DNA of 64,000 nt, taken from contig CANFBW010000005.1 in NCBI GenBank assembly GCA_947444925.1, forward strand, positions 1 to 64,000, in the 5' to 3' direction. This document shows, piece by piece, positions 6,912 through 48,779 of the stretch. The notes under the pieces are model-generated. The model ran no database searches. It saw nothing but the letters and a program-made list of their open reading frames with translations, and had not been told where the DNA came from. Numbering within the stretch: position 1 is the first letter of the stretch; each line of letters starts with the position of its first letter. Position numbers and translations under genes: made by a program. This DNA comes from Flavobacteriales bacterium. GTDB taxonomy: Bacteria; Bacteroidota; Bacteroidia; Flavobacteriales_C; GCA-002722245.

Positions 6912-8102
6912 ATGCCTAGAATATTAAGGATAATAAATAGATTCAACCTCGGAGGACCAACTTATAACGCTGCGTATTTAACCAAATACATGCCACCGCA
7001 CTACGAAACGCTACTCATTGGCGGGGAAAAGGAAGAATCAGAAGAAAGCAGCGCACATATTTTAAATAGTCTAGACCTCACTTCTACCATCATACCGGAA
7101 ATGAAGCGTTCAATTAATCCACTAAATGACTACAATGCCTACAAAAAAATAAAAAACATTATCAAAGAATACAAGCCCGACATTGTGCATACGCACGCAG
7201 CAAAGGCAGGTACAATAGGGCGACTGGCGGCTTACACCTCAAAAGTACCGGTGATCGTTCACACTTTTCACGGACATGTGTTTCACTCCTATTTCAACAA
7301 AGCGAAAACATCCGTTTTCAAAAACATTGAACGAAATTTGGCGGCGAAGAGCACAAAAATCATCGCCATTAGCGAAAAACAAAAATATGAATTGGGTACT
7401 ATTCATAGAATTTGCCCCCCTGAAAAGATAGAGATCATCCCTCTTGGCTTTGACCTCAGCAGGTTTCAAGAAAACATTGAAGACAAAAGACGCGCATTCA
7501 GAAAGCAATACAACATTGCAGATGACGAGATAGCCGTTGGTATTGTAGGTCGAATTGTTCCTGTTAAAAACCATGAACTATTTGTGCGCGCATGGAAAGA
7601 AGTGTGCGACAAAAGCACTAAAAAAATTCGAGCCTTCGTTGTAGGTGACGGTGAAGATCGAGGCAAAGTAGAAGAATTGGCGCTTTCATTGGGCATTTCA
7701 ATCTGCGTTGGAGATTTTGAAAATTCCAAATGTAGTCTTACGTTTACATCGTGGATAAAAGACGTGGATGTTGTGAATGCAGGCGTAGATATTATAGCAC
7801 TCAGTTCTTTAAACGAAGGCACGCCAGTTAGTTTGATTGAAGCGCAAGCGGGCAACAATCCTGTAGTGAGCACAAAAGTAGGCGGAATCGAAAATGTGGT
7901 CATCCACAACAAAACAGGGCTGCTGTCTGAAATTGGAGACACGCAAGGCTACGCCAACAATCTACTTAGGCTAATTGAAGATGTAGACCTGCGTTTGCAA
8001 ATGCAAAAACTTGGATGGGAAAATGTGAGAGAAAAATTTCACTACACAAGGCTAGTGAAAGATATGGACAAATTATACAGTACTTTACTGCATTCAAAAT
8101 GA
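6912..8102 (+). CDS. GT4-family glycosyltransferase
   Basis: A 396-residue GT-B fold enzyme. The N-terminal part carries NRFNLGGPTYNAAYLTKYM, the acceptor-side glycine-rich loop, and HTHAAKAGTIGRLAAY. The C-terminal half carries VGIVGRIVPVKNHELFVRAW and the nucleotide-sugar binding E-x7-E region ALSSLNEGTPVSLIEAQA, both typical of GT4 (WcaL/PelF/RfaB-like). It is cytoplasmic and likely adds one sugar to an undecaprenyl-linked repeat unit. Its stop codon overlaps the start of the export lipoprotein gene (ATGA), showing tight coupling to polysaccharide export. It is the only glycosyltransferase of this type in the locus. Donor and acceptor are unknown. Confidence 0.9.
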   Translation: MPRILRIINRFNLGGPTYNAAYLTKYMPPHYETLLIGGEKEESEESSAHILNSLDLTSTIIPEMKRSINPLNDYNAYKKIKNIIKEYKPDIVHTHAAKAGTIGRLAAYTSKVPVIVHTFHGHVFHSYFNKAKTSVFKNIERNLAAKSTKIIAISEKQKYELGTIHRICPPEKIEIIPLGFDLSRFQENIEDKRRAFRKQYNIADDEIAVGIVGRIVPVKNHELFVRAWKEVCDKSTKKIRAFVVGDGEDRGKVEELALSLGISICVGDFENSKCSLTFTSWIKDVDVVNAGVDIIALSSLNEGTPVSLIEAQAGNNPVVSTKVGGIENVVIHNKTGLLSEIGDTQGYANNLLRLIEDVDLRLQMQKLGWENVREKFHYTRLVKDMDKLYSTLLHSK

Positions 8103-8932
8103 AATACGACATAAAAACATATTCCTTTTTACTCCTATTGATCGTCGCGCTTTCTTCATGCGCAACCTTTAATCCCAGCAAAATGCTGAAAATCCCAGCA
8201 GATTATCCCTATGCAAAATTCCCGGATTCGGTCAAAATTGAGCCCTACAAAATTGCAATCAACGATGTGATCAATTTTAGCTTGTACACCAATGACGGCT
8301 TTAAAATGGCCAGTGTATCAGGGTACGCAACTGAAACAGGAATCTCAACAGGTGCTGGAATGACAACATTCAAAGTGCGCTCTAATGGTAAGGTTAAAAT
8401 GCCGGTACTAGGAGAGTTGCCAGTTGTTGGCCTGACAGTTAAAGAAATGGAAGAATTATTAGAGGATAGGTTTAAACAATATTTCGTCAATCCATTTGTA
8501 ACCCTTGAAATAACGAACAAGAGAATCTATTTATTTCGCGGTGGTATATCTGCATCTATGGTTACCCTTGAAAGTGAAAACACTACGCTTTTCGAAGTTC
8601 TTGCAAAATCCGGAGGGGTATCTGGTGGCGGCACCGGAACAAGTGCCGCAAATTCCAGTATGGGATCGAGTGCCAGTGGTATGAACTATGCTAGTAAAAT
8701 TAAGATTATTAGAGGCGACTTAAAAAAACCCGACATCTATTTAGTTGATCTTTCTAGAATCGAAGGGTTAAAAGACGCTGACATCATTATGCACTCCAAC
8801 GACATCGTATACATTGAACCAGTAATCAACTACGCCTATACCATACCATCAGACATAGCTTCATTCACAGGATTAATATCATCTGTACTGAGCGTGTTTT
8901 TAGTGTACAAGCTTGTTAGCGCAAAACAATAA
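8099..8932 (+). CDS. Wza-type polysaccharide export outer-membrane lipoprotein
   Basis: 277 residues. I chose the ATG at 8099, which overlaps the previous stop as ATGA, because it gives a lipoprotein signal peptide: MKYDIKTYSFLLLLIVALSS followed by the lipobox cysteine. An upstream in-frame ATG at 8015 would bury that signal. After it come a Poly_export domain (AINDVINFSLYTNDG) and an SLBB-like segment (KVKMPVLGELPVVGLTVKEM). A Gly/Ser-rich linker occurs around residues 180-200. A C-terminal hydrophobic helix (SFTGLISSVLSVFLVYKLV) may form the outer-membrane helix as in Wza. The protein should form the export channel, working with the Wzc-type kinase encoded three bases downstream. Confidence 0.9.
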   Translation: MKYDIKTYSFLLLLIVALSSCATFNPSKMLKIPADYPYAKFPDSVKIEPYKIAINDVINFSLYTNDGFKMASVSGYATETGISTGAGMTTFKVRSNGKVKMPVLGELPVVGLTVKEMEELLEDRFKQYFVNPFVTLEITNKRIYLFRGGISASMVTLESENTTLFEVLAKSGGVSGGGTGTSAANSSMGSSASGMNYASKIKIIRGDLKKPDIYLVDLSRIEGLKDADIIMHSNDIVYIEPVINYAYTIPSDIASFTGLISSVLSVFLVYKLVSAKQ

Positions 8933-8934
8933 AA

Positions 8935-11346
8935 ATGGAAAGAAAAAAAATAGGCTTACTCAATGACGATTTTGACCTAGCACTCGCGCTAAAGATATCT
9001 AAAGTGTCTTACCCATGGGTAATATTTCTGCTTACATTGGGTTATTGCTTAGCGTTTTTGTATAATAGGTACACCCAACCTGTTTATCAATCAAAAGCCA
9101 TTGTAAAGATTGGAGAAGCGAACAACATGAACAAAATCATGCAATTCGAAAACATCTACGATATGCCGATTGCTGGTGAGATTGAATTGATACGATCAAA
9201 AACACTTATTAAAAGAGCTCTACAAAAGTTACCACTAGACATTTCGTACATTTCTGAAGGATCATTCCTGAATTTTGAAGAATACAAGAATTCTAGGTAT
9301 AGGGTAAGCTACCAAGTAAAAGACCAAGCTATATTTGCAACCCCCATTTATGTGAAGTTTATAGAGGATGAAAAGGTGCAAATTAATTATGTGATTAACG
9401 ATATTTTGCACGAATACACTTTCCCCATAAACTCTTGGACAACTCTTCCAGAAATTGAAATAAAAATCAGCATCTCGCAGAGTAACTATTATAAAATTCA
9501 AAAGGAAGAAACTACTAGTCCAATGTACTTCAGTTTAAACAGCCAAGAAGATATATTGAACAATTGCCTCGCGCAAATGATGATCAACATTGTCAGCGAA
9601 GAGGCAAAGACTGTTGAAATTGAATTCACATCCAACAATCCTTTAAAAGCGGCTGATTTAGCGAACGCAATTTCAACAGAATTTCTAGCATATAATGTTG
9701 AAAAAAAGAGCGAAAGCGCCAATCAAATGATCAATTTCACGAACGATCAACTACTTGCAATCAGTGAGAAAATTAATGACTACTCAAAAACGCTGGAACC
9801 ATATATGACCAAAGATGACAACGGTCAAAAATTTAATCCAATGCTTTTCGACAATGTCTCTCAAAAAGAAGAACTCTTGAATGATCAATACCACTTGTTA
9901 AATTTTGAATTACAAGCACTTATTGATTACAAAGGAAAGTTATCTCGTCTGCAAGGCGACGACTATATTTATGCACCTTTACTGACATCGCCCAACACGC
10001 ATTCTCTTTTAGGTGTAATCCAGCAATACCAAATGATGATTACGCAACGCAAAGAATTGCAGTATCAATACACGAGCAATAGCGGTCCAATTAAGGAGTT
10101 AGACTACAAAATTCAATTAAACAAAAGAGAATTAATTGAAAACGTTGATATCGCAATTTCTGAAATGCAAGATCAACTTGCCTCTTTAGAAAAAAGAAGA
10201 TCATCTAAAAAAATAGAAAACACAGCCATAGAAAATTCAACTAAAATAAAAACTTCTGAGATCAATCAAATCGAAAGGATGTTTGAAATTAGCCAAGATT
10301 ATTACACCAAATTATTACAGAAAAAATCTGAATTTGAAATGGTTAAAGCGGGCTTTGTTTCCAACAATGACATTTTAGAATATGCATATAGCAATGATAT
10401 TCCAATCGAACCGCAGCGCAGATTAGTGTACGTTCTGTTTATTTCCATAGGAGCACTAATTGGATTCGGCATCATAATTGTTCGTTATTTGCTGCACAAC
10501 ACTGTTTCGACTATCATTGATATCGTTAAATACACCAATCAAGTCGCAATATTGGGCATGATACCAGAATACAAAGAAAGCATTCCAATTTCCCAGTTGC
10601 TGGTAGACAAAAATCCAAAGTCATTAATGACAGAAGCATTCCGTTCAGTGCGATCGAATCTTCAGTTTTTGACAAAAAATGAAGGCTCTAAGATTTTAGC
10701 AGTGACATCAACAGTCAGTGGTGAAGGAAAAACTTTCGTAGCCATCAACTTAGGAGGAATTATTGCCTTTTCAGGCAAAAAAGTAATCATTCTTGACCTT
10801 GACATGCGAAAACCAAAAACACACATTGGATTTAACGCCGAAAATAAAGTAGGGATGAGCACGCTTTTAATAGGCAAGTCAAGTCTTCAAGAATGCATTC
10901 AACGTAGCGCCTTAGAAAACCTGCACTTCATTACAGCGGGACCAATACCTCCAAATCCATCGGAATTGATCATTAGTCCTAACATGGATCTAATTCTTGA
11001 CGAACTCAAAAAAACATACGAAATCATAGTGATTGACAATCCGCCAGTAGGTATTGTAACGGATGCTCTCCCCATCATTAAAAAAGCCGATTACCCAATT
11101 TATATCTTGAGAGCAAACGTATCCAAAAAAGCATACTTACAAAACATCAACCACCTTAAAGAGGTAAACAACATAACTAATTTATCAGTAATTTTAAACG
11201 GCTCAAGCAATCGCTCACGAAAAGGCGGATACGGTTATGGTTACGGTTATGGCTACGGTTATGGTTATGGTTATGGTTATGGTTATTACGAGGAGCCAAC
11301 GAAAGCAAAAAAAAGAAAAAACATCTTCTCTAAACTATTTGAATAA
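8935..11346 (+). CDS. Wzc-type polysaccharide co-polymerase and tyrosine autokinase (BY-kinase)
   Basis: 803 residues. A first membrane helix (about residues 28-46) starts the Wzz domain, followed by a long periplasmic coiled-coil region (about 250-480). The GNVR-type motif NDIPIEPQRRLVYVLF leads into the second membrane helix. The cytoplasmic kinase has Walker A STVSGEGKTFVAINL, Walker A' IILDLDMRKPK and Walker B IIVIDNPPVGIVTDA. The C-terminus is a tyrosine cluster built of Gly-Tyr repeats (11 tyrosines), the autophosphorylation tail. The protein controls chain length and export of the polysaccharide by cyclic phosphorylation. No separate Wzb phosphatase gene is in the window. Confidence 0.94.
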   Translation: MERKKIGLLNDDFDLALALKISKVSYPWVIFLLTLGYCLAFLYNRYTQPVYQSKAIVKIGEANNMNKIMQFENIYDMPIAGEIELIRSKTLIKRALQKLPLDISYISEGSFLNFEEYKNSRYRVSYQVKDQAIFATPIYVKFIEDEKVQINYVINDILHEYTFPINSWTTLPEIEIKISISQSNYYKIQKEETTSPMYFSLNSQEDILNNCLAQMMINIVSEEAKTVEIEFTSNNPLKAADLANAISTEFLAYNVEKKSESANQMINFTNDQLLAISEKINDYSKTLEPYMTKDDNGQKFNPMLFDNVSQKEELLNDQYHLLNFELQALIDYKGKLSRLQGDDYIYAPLLTSPNTHSLLGVIQQYQMMITQRKELQYQYTSNSGPIKELDYKIQLNKRELIENVDIAISEMQDQLASLEKRRSSKKIENTAIENSTKIKTSEINQIERMFEISQDYYTKLLQKKSEFEMVKAGFVSNNDILEYAYSNDIPIEPQRRLVYVLFISIGALIGFGIIIVRYLLHNTVSTIIDIVKYTNQVAILGMIPEYKESIPISQLLVDKNPKSLMTEAFRSVRSNLQFLTKNEGSKILAVTSTVSGEGKTFVAINLGGIIAFSGKKVIILDLDMRKPKTHIGFNAENKVGMSTLLIGKSSLQECIQRSALENLHFITAGPIPPNPSELIISPNMDLILDELKKTYEIIVIDNPPVGIVTDALPIIKKADYPIYILRANVSKKAYLQNINHLKEVNNITNLSVILNGSSNRSRKGGYGYGYGYGYGYGYGYGYGYYEEPTKAKKRKNIFSKLFE
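11224..11289 (+). repeat. Hexanucleotide repeat (GGTTAY) encoding the Gly-Tyr tail of the tyrosine kinase
   Basis: About ten consecutive copies of a GGTTAT/GGTTAC/GGCTAC unit encode alternating glycine and tyrosine and end with a double tyrosine. The last five units are identical GGTTAT copies, which makes the tract prone to slippage in steps of two residues without a frameshift. Confidence 0.92.
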
Positions 11347-11358
11347 GTCCGAATACCT

Positions 11359-11901
11359 ATGCGCGTAATTACAACACCGATAAAAGATTTGTTGCTTATT
11401 GAACCCAAGGTTTTTGGTGACGATAGGGGCTATTTTTACGAAAGCTACAATGAAAAGCTCTTTCACTCCAATAATGTAACCGCCAATTTTGTACAAGACA
11501 ATATTTCAAAATCATCCAAAGGCATATTGCGCGGACTGCATTTTCAAACACCCCCTTTTACCCAAGGAAAATTAGTGAAAGTGATACAAGGTTCTGTCTT
11601 AGATGTTGCGGTAGACTTACGCGCAGCTTCGCCCACTTTTGGTCAGCATTTTAAAATGGTGCTCTCCGAGGAAAACCACAAAATGATGTGGATTCCCGAA
11701 GGTTTTGCCCATGGCTTTCTCACTTTAGAAGACGACACGATTTTTCTATACAAATGCACCAATTTTTACAACGCAAGTGCCGATAGATCAATACTATGGA
11801 ATAGTCCTGAACTAAATATTGATTGGGGCATTACCAACCCAATACTTTCAGACAAAGACCGCAACGGAAAAACACTCAATGAATTCAAGGGTTTGTTTTA
11901 A
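11359..11901 (+). CDS. rfbC: dTDP-4-dehydrorhamnose 3,5-epimerase
   Basis: A 180-residue cupin-type epimerase of the RmlC family, the standard length. Motifs include the N-terminal EPKVFGDDRGYFYESYNE, the catalytic-histidine segment ILRGLHFQTPPFTQGKLVKV and the later MWIPEGFAHGFLTLEDDT. It converts dTDP-4-keto-6-deoxyglucose to dTDP-4-keto-rhamnose in the dTDP-L-rhamnose pathway. The other pathway genes rfbA, rfbB and rfbD are not beside it and must be elsewhere if the pathway is complete. It lies 12 bases after the tyrosine-kinase gene, so it is probably co-transcribed with the export genes. Confidence 0.92.
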   Translation: MRVITTPIKDLLLIEPKVFGDDRGYFYESYNEKLFHSNNVTANFVQDNISKSSKGILRGLHFQTPPFTQGKLVKVIQGSVLDVAVDLRAASPTFGQHFKMVLSEENHKMMWIPEGFAHGFLTLEDDTIFLYKCTNFYNASADRSILWNSPELNIDWGITNPILSDKDRNGKTLNEFKGLF

Positions 11902-46696: not shown

Positions 46697-47905
46697 CTAG
46701 GCTTTTGAAAAAGTGAATTTTAATACTATTTTACTTAGCCCTATCCATATTCTCCATAAATAGTAAATCGGCAAGAGAAATGTATATCGCATCTTGTACC
46801 TTGCAACCATATATGATTTTTGCGGAAAAACATCATCAACAACATAGCGCAATTTGCTTTTCCAGCCACTAAAGCTGCTCAAAATAATCACATTTGAAAT
46901 TTGATACTGCACTTTTGCCAAGGCCTTTTGCACACCAAATTGATCACCGTTCAATGCACAAAGAAAAACTGATTCCAGCTCGTTTATGGGTGATGCAATA
47001 CCGTCAAAAAAGAAAGGAGGCACATTTGAATTCCAATAGCTTTGACATAAAAACATAATTTGCTGCAACTCCTTCAAACAATTGTACTGAACAGAACTAG
47101 CGTATAACAAATGCCAATCAATTTGATCCCGATGCAGAAGCAGCATCTCAACAATATCGTTAAAAGAACTAAACCTAAATTGACCACTTATTAAATGAGT
47201 GTATTGATGCGTGCACAAATGCTGCAAAAGATCTTCTACACAGAAATTCCGCCCATTCACACCTGAAAAGGCGCAGAAAACACTTCTACTCCAATAATCG
47301 TCTATATTGATGTTAAAATGCGAAAACGAAGAATGCACATGACGATGTAATTCTATCACCGAATTATTTTTGATTAGACAATAAGGATGATGGAATATTT
47401 CTTGACGCTCAAAGAATTCCGATTTTTTGGGGTGCGTCAACACCAATTTCCATTCATTATTTAACAAAACATTTTTCACCCTTTCAACATCCTGTGCTCT
47501 AACCAATAAATCGATATCGTTGGTAATCCTAAGTCCATAATCAACATACAAAACATCTAGTAACATGATGCCTTTTAATGGAATAAAATCCAAACCTTCC
47601 TGCTGCAGAACCTTTGCTGCATGTGTAAAATCATTGTACAAACGAATATTACTCGATAAATATCTATAGTAATTCGCTTTTAGTGTTTTCACAACCTGGT
47701 TGGGAAGTAAATTTTGATCAGAAAACCGAGTGCAATTTTTGAAAATCAAAGCAGCTAAAGCTGTAGATTGCGCTTTAGTCAGCACGGAATCCCAATCAGA
47801 AATATTTTGAGAAATTTGCTCTAAACGCAATAAATCGGGAGAGGAAATATGAAGAGTAGAGCCTAAAAGCAAAAATTGTTCTTCCCAAGACAAATCTGAG
47901 AACAT
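46697..47905 (-). CDS. Nucleotidyltransferase-family protein (NTP_transf_5-like)
   Basis: 402 residues from the ATG at 47905 (MFSDLSWEEQFLLLG), one base after the pqqD-like stop; starts at 47953 or 47974 would overlap that gene. The central region IPLKGIMLLDVLYVDYG then ITNDIDLLVRAQDVERV has the K-G and D-x-D pattern of the minimal nucleotidyltransferase family PF14907. The C-terminal half is helical. Such proteins accompany PqqD and HprK-like genes in lasso and HPr-rel-A type loci; their reaction is not generally established. It is convergent with the peptidase gene with a 24-base gap and belongs to the precursor operon. Confidence 0.8.
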   Translation of the reverse strand: MFSDLSWEEQFLLLGSTLHISSPDLLRLEQISQNISDWDSVLTKAQSTALAALIFKNCTRFSDQNLLPNQVVKTLKANYYRYLSSNIRLYNDFTHAAKVLQQEGLDFIPLKGIMLLDVLYVDYGLRITNDIDLLVRAQDVERVKNVLLNNEWKLVLTHPKKSEFFERQEIFHHPYCLIKNNSVIELHRHVHSSFSHFNINIDDYWSRSVFCAFSGVNGRNFCVEDLLQHLCTHQYTHLISGQFRFSSFNDIVEMLLLHRDQIDWHLLYASSVQYNCLKELQQIMFLCQSYWNSNVPPFFFDGIASPINELESVFLCALNGDQFGVQKALAKVQYQISNVIILSSFSGWKSKLRYVVDDVFPQKSYMVARYKMRYTFLLPIYYLWRIWIGLSKIVLKFTFSKA

Positions 47906-47906
47906 A

Positions 47907-48191
47907 TTAAGCCAAAACGTATTTTGATAATTTTTCAAGAAATGAAACCACATCCTGTTCAGCAGTTTCAACATCTACTTCAAACTCCTTGACCAAGGAT
48001 GCAACGATGGTTTCCAAAGAACTTACTTCGGTCAATTGCTCCCAAATGAAAGACCCGCTTTCATTTAAAGTAAACATCTCGTTCATCTCGGCGACATTGC
48101 CTTTTAACGGCACCAAAATCAAATCATTCGCCACCTTTTGAACAGCGAAGGCATTCTTGTGTGCAACAATATTCGGAATAATAGAATTCAT
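47907..48191 (-). CDS. PqqD-like peptide-binding (RRE) protein
   Basis: 94 residues with the winged-helix PqqD/RRE fold pattern: a strand VQKVANDLILVPLKGNVAEM, then the typical FTLNESGSFIWEQLTEVSSL and the helix IVASLVKEFEVDVETAEQDV, ending LEKLSKYVLA. PqqD-type proteins bind leader peptides of ribosomally made peptides and hand them to modifying enzymes. It lies between the four peptide genes upstream and the nucleotidyltransferase gene downstream, all on the minus strand. This is the strongest single hint that the small peptides are substrates. Confidence 0.85.
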   Translation of the reverse strand: MNSIIPNIVAHKNAFAVQKVANDLILVPLKGNVAEMNEMFTLNESGSFIWEQLTEVSSLETIVASLVKEFEVDVETAEQDVVSFLEKLSKYVLA

Positions 48192-48318: not shown

Positions 48319-48399
48319 TCAAGGTGTCCCCATTAATATCGAAATTTCACTGTCTAAATCTACCTTAATTACTTCTGGTTTCTCGTATTTCTTCTTCAT
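48319..48399 (-). CDS. Putative precursor peptide 4 of four (26 aa)
   Basis: Twenty-six codons, ATG complement at 48397-48399 and stop TGA. It begins MKKKYEKPEVIKVDLDSEIS and ends ILMGTP. It is the copy closest to the pqqD-like gene and the most diverged at DNA level. Its upstream spacer is only 21 bases but keeps the TTGGACTGAT motif that precedes copies 2 and 3. The Y-x-x-P-x-V motif fits a leader-recognition site. The C-terminus has a Thr before the last Pro. Confidence 0.72.
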   Translation of the reverse strand: MKKKYEKPEVIKVDLDSEISILMGTP

Positions 48400-48420
48400 A
48401 TCAGTCCAAAATTAAGTCAA

Positions 48421-48498
48421 TTATGATGCCATTAATATTGAAATTTCACTGTCCAAATCCACCTTAATTACTTCTGGTTTTTCGTATTTCTTTTTCAT
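48421..48498 (-). CDS. Putative precursor peptide 3 of four (25 aa)
   Basis: Twenty-five codons, starting as the other copies (MKKKYEKPEV) and ending SILMAS. The terminal residue is Ser. Its DNA and its upstream spacer are almost identical to copy 2 for about 90 bases, showing recent duplication, yet the last four residues differ. Stop is TAA. Confidence 0.72.
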   Translation of the reverse strand: MKKKYEKPEVIKVDLDSEISILMAS

Positions 48499-48554
48499 AT
48501 CAGTCCAATTAATTAAATTTTTCTCCACTAAATCAAATTCATCTCCTAAAATTA

Positions 48555-48638
48555 TTAGGTAGGTGACAACATTAACGTTGAAATTTCACTGTCCAAATCC
48601 ACCTTAATTACTTCTGGTTTTTCGTATTTCTTTTTCAT
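48555..48638 (-). CDS. Putative precursor peptide 2 of four (27 aa)
   Basis: Twenty-seven codons, starting MKKKYEKPEV and ending STLMLSPT. It is the longest copy, with one residue added at the C-terminus relative to copy 1. Stop is TAA, immediately followed by a second TAA in frame. Confidence 0.72.
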   Translation of the reverse strand: MKKKYEKPEVIKVDLDSEISTLMLSPT

Positions 48639-48698
48639 ATCAGTCCAATTAATTAAATTTTTCTCCACCAAATCAAATTCATCACCTAAAACGATTAC

Positions 48699-48779
48699 TC
48701 AAGGCGACAACATTAATGTTGAAATTTCACTATCTAAATCCACCTTAATCACCTCTGGTTTCTCGTATTTCTTTTTCAT
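48699..48779 (-). CDS. Putative precursor peptide 1 of four (26 aa)
   Basis: Twenty-six codons, the first gene of the minus-strand operon, starting MKKKYEKPEV and ending STLMLSP. Stop is TGA. Promoter box TAAATTTG lies 22 bases upstream. The gene is too short for most gene callers, but four paralogous copies sharing the protein frame with mostly synonymous changes (for example GAG/GAA, GTG/GTA, GAT/GAC) support real coding. No hydrophobic signal sequence. Confidence 0.75.
   Translation of the reverse strand: MKKKYEKPEVIKVDLDSEISTLMLSP

Follow-up and report, generated by a model that had tools for sequence, protein, structure and literature searches.

The repeat under study lies in a stretch of 64,000 nucleotides from a Flavobacteriales bacterium, hereafter the window, at the 3′ end of a gene encoding an 803-residue protein. 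The neighboring genes encode an OPX/Wza-like exporter, glycosyltransferases, and a dTDP-sugar epimerase (Table 1). Three Pfam domains score above the cut-offs, namely Wzz (residues 28–99), GNVR (445–518), and AAA_31 (586–722), and one chain joins the Wzz-type periplasmic domain and the GNVR region to the kinase, as the PCP-2a (Wzc) type requires. The protein reaches 165.2 bits against TIGR01007 (eps_fam), the model of the polysaccharide autokinase subfamily, for which the cut-off is 108.05 bits. Sequence comparison with the PDB retrieved Wzc (E 2.4e-43), CapAB, Etk, BceF, and VpsO as relatives. The ExxRxxR motif, tied to oligomerization in an excerpt of PMC7485978, and the Walker A, A′, and B motifs are nearly invariant among the relatives. 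An AF2 model of the kinase domain (mean pLDDT 83.1) is closest in fold to Wzc (Z 29.6) and CapAB (Z 29.4), the next family being MinD (Z 16.4). Because domains, motifs, PDB sequence matches, and fold agree, we assign the product as a BY-kinase of the Wzc type, and the original prediction was right to call it a polysaccharide BY-kinase. It was also right about the repeat, which constitutes the C-terminal tyrosine cluster of the kinase, with 11 tyrosines within the last 47 residues.

Table 1. Predicted genes and sequence features at the kinase locus, in coordinates of the window.
Feature	Position	Strand	Basis
Group 1 glycosyltransferase, same locus	6912..8102	+	
OPX/Wza-like polysaccharide export protein, adjacent upstream of the kinase	8015..8932	+	Pfam Poly_export, E 8.4e-14
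Wzc-type polysaccharide co-polymerase with BY-kinase domain, CDS of 803 aa	8935..11346	+	Pfam, TIGR01007, PDB match
ExxRxxR motif (aa 567-573), BY-kinase oligomerization motif	10633..10653	+	E567 and R573 in 235/235, R570 in 234/235
Walker A, SGEGKT (aa 595-600)	10717..10734	+	G598 and K599 in 235/235
Walker A′, LDLDMRKP (aa 620-627)	10792..10815	+	D623 and R625 in 235/235
Walker B, VIDNPP (aa 699-704)	11029..11046	+	D701 and P704 in 235/235
(GY)10-Y tyrosine ladder, ten GGN-TAY units + TAC	11227..11289	+	Direct sequence; predicted disordered, pLDDT ~35
Five identical GGTTAT units (hexamers 6-10) within the ladder	11257..11286	+	Direct sequence
Terminal YYEE anchor	11284..11295	+	Last YY, then two acidic residues, in 190/235 relatives
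Basic amphipathic C-terminal extension PTKAKKRKNIFSKLFE	11296..11343	+	Family charge, hydrophobic moment
dTDP-4-dehydrorhamnose 3,5-epimerase, same locus	11359..11901	+	

Positions 11224–11289 encode GG(YG)9YY in the reading frame of the coding sequence (8935–11346), at its 3′ end. Ten GGN-TAY hexamers span 11227–11286 and are followed by a single TAC codon. Sequence and translation confirm the tail of 11 tyrosines in a (Gly-Tyr) repeat as well as the claim that the last hexamers are identical, the final five units all reading GGTTAT; units 1–5 are mixed (GGATAC, GGTTAT, GGTTAC, GGTTAT, and GGCTAC). TRF calls a period-6 array at 11233–11286 (score 87), and, given the codon usage of the window itself, a run of five identical hexamers has a probability of 0.003. 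Four tandem GGNTAY hexamers occur at a single place in the window's genome, where the seven overlapping forward matches correspond to exactly ten units. The ladder is a real, non-random feature.

Tyrosine tails are known from other BY-kinases. CapA/CapB from Staphylococcus aureus (PDB 2VED, 3BFV, 4JMP) shares the kinase domain and gives the best profile match (E 1.3e-58), and both systems are tyrosine-tailed; CapA/CapB consists of two proteins with a short and irregular tyrosine tail, whereas the window's kinase is a single chain. VpsO from Vibrio cholerae (PDB 6U1Q) is, like the window's kinase, a single-chain BY-kinase with a tyrosine tail controlling exopolysaccharide, according to an excerpt of PMC7485978. 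Unlike the window's kinase, it has six tyrosines in an irregular cluster, as described there, and no GY ladder. Among Bacteroidota, Ptk1 from Porphyromonas gingivalis, likened here by its description in part of PMC4082711, is a BY-kinase with a C-terminal tyrosine-rich cluster and a wza-like neighboring gene; the same part reports that it autophosphorylates.

To follow the tail through the family, we collected 285 loci, 278 of which match the kinase. After dropping two of these (L258, with an open end, and L100, which is short) and removing 41 loci identical in the last 600 bases, 235 unique relatives remained. At least three tandem GY units are present in 216 of the 235. With a query lacking the tail, relatives were detected in 337 of the 396 genomes of the class. 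Among 159 better-scoring unique relatives, obtained nearly all with this tail-less query, 157 carry at least three and 124 at least five tandem GY units; this set holds the better-scoring matches of each search, the more distant half lying outside it, and its first five species were met first with the full-length query and again with the tail-less one. An independent DNA pattern of at least four tandem GGNTAY hexamers occurs in 281 of the 396 class genomes. The spacing of the tyrosines is also far from random: 2271 of the 2646 tail tyrosines in the 235 relatives lie two residues from another tyrosine, as compared with 1024 (sd 33) in shuffled tails. The 76 relatives obtained from a contig scan all end in YYEE, a figure biased by the scan itself, as YGYGYYEE was one of its six patterns. 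A search at the level of the order returned the same 10 genomes as the search at the level of the family and added nothing. Judged from these sequences, the (Gly-Tyr)n tail is characteristic of the family and did not arise by local slippage. It is probably a lineage-specific variant on an established type of tail, and the open-access literature searched yielded no report of the GY ladder or of its tyrosine count.

Sixteen extra GGNTAY places, 11 of them in genus g21, were read later and are kept outside all counts on the 235 relatives. All lie in proteins matching the BY-kinase query, most of which are paralogues with 23–30% identity to the window's kinase. GY tails are also borne by the BY-kinase paralogues L286–L295 (genus g21) and L296–L301. 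One of them, L286, contains eight identical GGTTAT hexamers in a row and would suit a search for slippage better than the window's tract.

The ladder is followed by a segment of opposite charges. In the family, the mean charge is −2.0 over the first six residues after the ladder and +4.3 over the remainder, and the extension has a median length of about 20 residues. Its helical hydrophobic moment is 0.52 as compared with 0.41 for shuffled sequences, calculated with kinship ignored for the 180 of 235 relatives that are long enough. The AF2 model shows no ordered helix in the C-terminal extension, which neither supports nor excludes a membrane-bound amphipathic helix. Possible partners of the extension are the membrane and other parts of the complex.

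The closest known system is Wzc from Escherichia coli K30, a PCP-2a protein with BY-kinase (PDB 7NHR, 9EXO, 9I2Q; PMC8285477, PMC11986026). The two kinases have in common the domain order, the Walker A, A′, and B motifs, the ExxRxxR motif, and the fold (Z ~29). In the 2025 structural model, as excerpted from PMC11986026, Wzc is a ratchet in which the tail tyrosines pass singly through the active site of the neighboring protomer. The authors further propose that the tail moves from the C- to the N-terminus, that the tyrosine two residues upstream is held in a pocket, and that the octamer disassembles once four phosphorylations have taken place; they also note that a gap in the YxY pattern at N711 disorders the tail (PMC11986026). 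Earlier K30 work, as cited there, indicates that the extent of phosphorylation matters and not any single tyrosine (PMC11986026).

The K30 tail ends in YGYSYY, the same YxYxYY layout as GYGYGYY in the window's kinase. The ladder of the window, with about 11 tyrosines and no gap, is about twice as long as the K30 tail with five target tyrosines and the gap at N711. K30 Wzc, in its reported numbering, ends at K721, three residues past YY, whereas an acidic patch and a basic extension follow the ladder here. The YxY spacing on which the ratchet relies is present, but the residues of the tyrosine pocket, E675 and P536, are not conserved. P536 aligns with Ser595 (S in 232/235), and E675 aligns with either residue 733 (E in 11/235) or residue 734 (F/Y in 231/235), according to the placement of a one-residue gap. 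We considered a replacement of E675 by a conserved aromatic residue and rejected it, as the alignment with the Etk profile needs this one-residue gap and only the non-conservation of the glutamate stands. Because E675 and P536 are not conserved, the selection of Tyr over pTyr proposed for K30 may not carry over as described. By analogy with K30, the gapless extension to ten GY units points to a ratchet of greater length or a clamp of greater strength.

The tyrosine count ranges from 4 to 24 among the 235 relatives, with a median of 11. We compared it between species in 63 disjoint sister-species pairs whose kinase regions are ≥85% identical, the collections holding one genome per species. The count is equal in 43 of the 63 pairs and differs by one in 16, by two in three, and by six in one, whereas random pairs agree in 12.6% of cases. 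Where the kinase DNA is ≥0.85 identical, it is equal in 15 of 16 pairs (8/8 at ≥0.90 and 7/8 at 0.85–0.90), and the 4-fold sites of count-conserving close pairs are only ~0.6–0.8 identical. The five species of the window's own genus have 11, 11, 12, 12, and 15 tyrosines. Tails of equal count use different synonymous codons, and the conservation therefore operates at the protein level. Between close species, the tyrosine count is mostly kept and does not flicker by slippage.

The DNA of the repeat gives a more mixed picture. Runs of at least five identical hexamers occur in 3 of 130 tracts of the family, with ~3.1 expected from codon usage, and the purity of the window's DNA is therefore not special. 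Longer pure runs exist in relatives, with nine identical hexamers in L157 and eight in L286. Whole neighboring units are identical in 155 of 922 cases, as compared with 162.3 expected from the codon usage of the gene. Pure-run slippage as the main force was accordingly rejected, long runs being at expectation and neighboring units no more alike than codon usage makes them. Units two apart, in a 12-bp register, are identical in 226 of 785 cases as opposed to 137.5 expected (tract-level z 4.5), and the periodicity persists (z 3.3) in 63 well-separated tracts alone, the deeper phylogeny being controlled by thinning only. Codon-pair bias was dismissed as a cause of the 12-bp register, since the codon pairs of 736 flanking genes give a predicted excess near 0 at lags 1 and 2, where −34 and +55 were observed.

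Neighboring tyrosine codons are identical in only 421 of 922 cases, with 510.1 expected (z −4.7). A general avoidance of identical neighboring units, seen with a permutation test, fails for whole units against the gene's own codon usage; the alternation of tyrosine codons is the only part of it that survives. In 137 thinned relatives, this alternation of TAT and TAC leaves 46% of neighbors identical, a value below the 50% under which independent draws cannot fall.

For the turnover of units between species, only pairs equal in both count and run length were kept. In the 14 closest equal-length pairs, glycine codons are identical at 37 of 83 positions, where the rest of the gene predicts 52.9 (z −2.1), and tyrosine codons at 60 of 83, where it predicts 68.1 (z −2.3). 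The excess of turnover is weaker over all 35 pairs (z −1.5 for Gly and −1.0 for Tyr) and is gone in pairs with nucleotide identity of at most 0.85 (Gly, 48/124 vs. 46.5). Slippage-like turnover of units thus probably occurs. These modest statistics suggest that units are recopied, partly in the 12-bp register, with the total held. The net changes of count between sisters, which are mostly of one unit and not of two, fit poorly with this register. Selection appears to hold the tyrosine count while the slippage-like turnover goes on.

The original prediction took the tract for a contingency locus, in which replication slippage shifts the number of tyrosines in frame between cells and thereby tunes polymer length. 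It is favored by the five identical 3′-terminal hexamers of the tract, the longer pure runs of L157 and L286, the single-unit differences in 16 of the 63 sister pairs, and the accelerated turnover of codons in the closest pairs. Nevertheless, the longest pure run in the window comprises five units and falls short of the long uninterrupted runs of a contingency locus; five copies are few beside classic contingency repeats. Runs of this length are not enriched over the family, and identical neighboring units show no excess. Flicker at the rates of contingency loci would randomize the count, and the agreement of sister species, in 15 of 16 pairs at nucleotide identity of at least 0.85, therefore argues against a fast slippage dial. 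The proposed slippage is favored in part by the codon turnover in the closest pairs and the pure runs of eight and nine units, but long runs are not enriched and the count appears to be held; a count serving as a slippage dial finds no support between species. We consider a contingency locus quite improbable.

The ladder could instead be a low-complexity linker tolerant of length, which needs no more than a YxY composition. Its count would then drift slowly, and the likeness of sisters would reflect only ancestry together with a low rate of insertions and deletions. The wide range of counts in the family speaks for such a linker, and so does the importance of phosphorylation extent over any single tyrosine in the K30 work cited in PMC11986026. 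A neutral count, on the other hand, should shift along with the units, whereas the closest pairs show codon turnover without a change of count, and the tracts show the 12-bp periodicity. This evidence is of modest size, and we regard the linker as possible though doubtful.

The best explanation, to which we assign a probability of about 0.6, is an autophosphorylation-tail ratchet, in which selection holds the count and slippage-like copying replaces the units. The 11-tyrosine tract would be the autophosphorylation tail of a Wzc-type co-polymerase/BY-kinase in the form of an extended, gapless YxY ladder. As proposed for K30, each protomer would pass its tail, C-terminal YY end first, through the active site of its neighbor, and phosphorylation would advance rung by rung in the direction of the N-terminus. 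The ring would break at the last phosphorylation step or steps, which would limit both polymerization and export; the phosphorylated tail would be reset by a phosphatase. The genome encodes two candidates, an LMW-PTP (PF01451) and a PHP phosphatase of the CpsB/YwqE type (PF19567), neither of them on the window's contig. The ten GY rungs may set the number of steps of the ring or the strength of its clamp. Selection would keep the number of rungs near an optimum specific to each lineage, single units probably being replaced over time by slippage-like copying; that selection, rather than a low mutation rate, keeps the count is what we infer. A more elaborate version of the ratchet is tentative and, taken as a whole, rather unlikely: a counted ratchet in the Wzc-type kinases of Bacteroidota, whose rungs would be fixed per lineage by selection despite continual recopying, with neighbors unlike in their tyrosine codons lowering 6-bp slippage, the basic amphipathic end serving as an anchor, and the rungs setting ring lifetime and polymer length.

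A natural series of such tails seems to exist in Bacteroidota, where related kinases bear GY ladders of 4 to 24 tyrosines. Most sister species keep an equal number of rungs, and the relation of rung number to ring lifetime and polymer length would become directly testable. The results also correct an attractive assumption that lacks support, by which any repeat within a gene for surface polysaccharide would act as a switch for phase variation.

Elsewhere in the window, the minus strand at 48319–48779 carries four tandem, near-identical mini-ORFs of the form MKKKYEKPEVIKVDLDSEIS[I/T]LM followed by 2–3 variable residues. The array lies upstream of a PqqD-like gene (47907–48191) and an NTP_transf_5 nucleotidyltransferase gene (46697–47974). 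It looks like a set of precursor peptides of a RiPP-type cluster.
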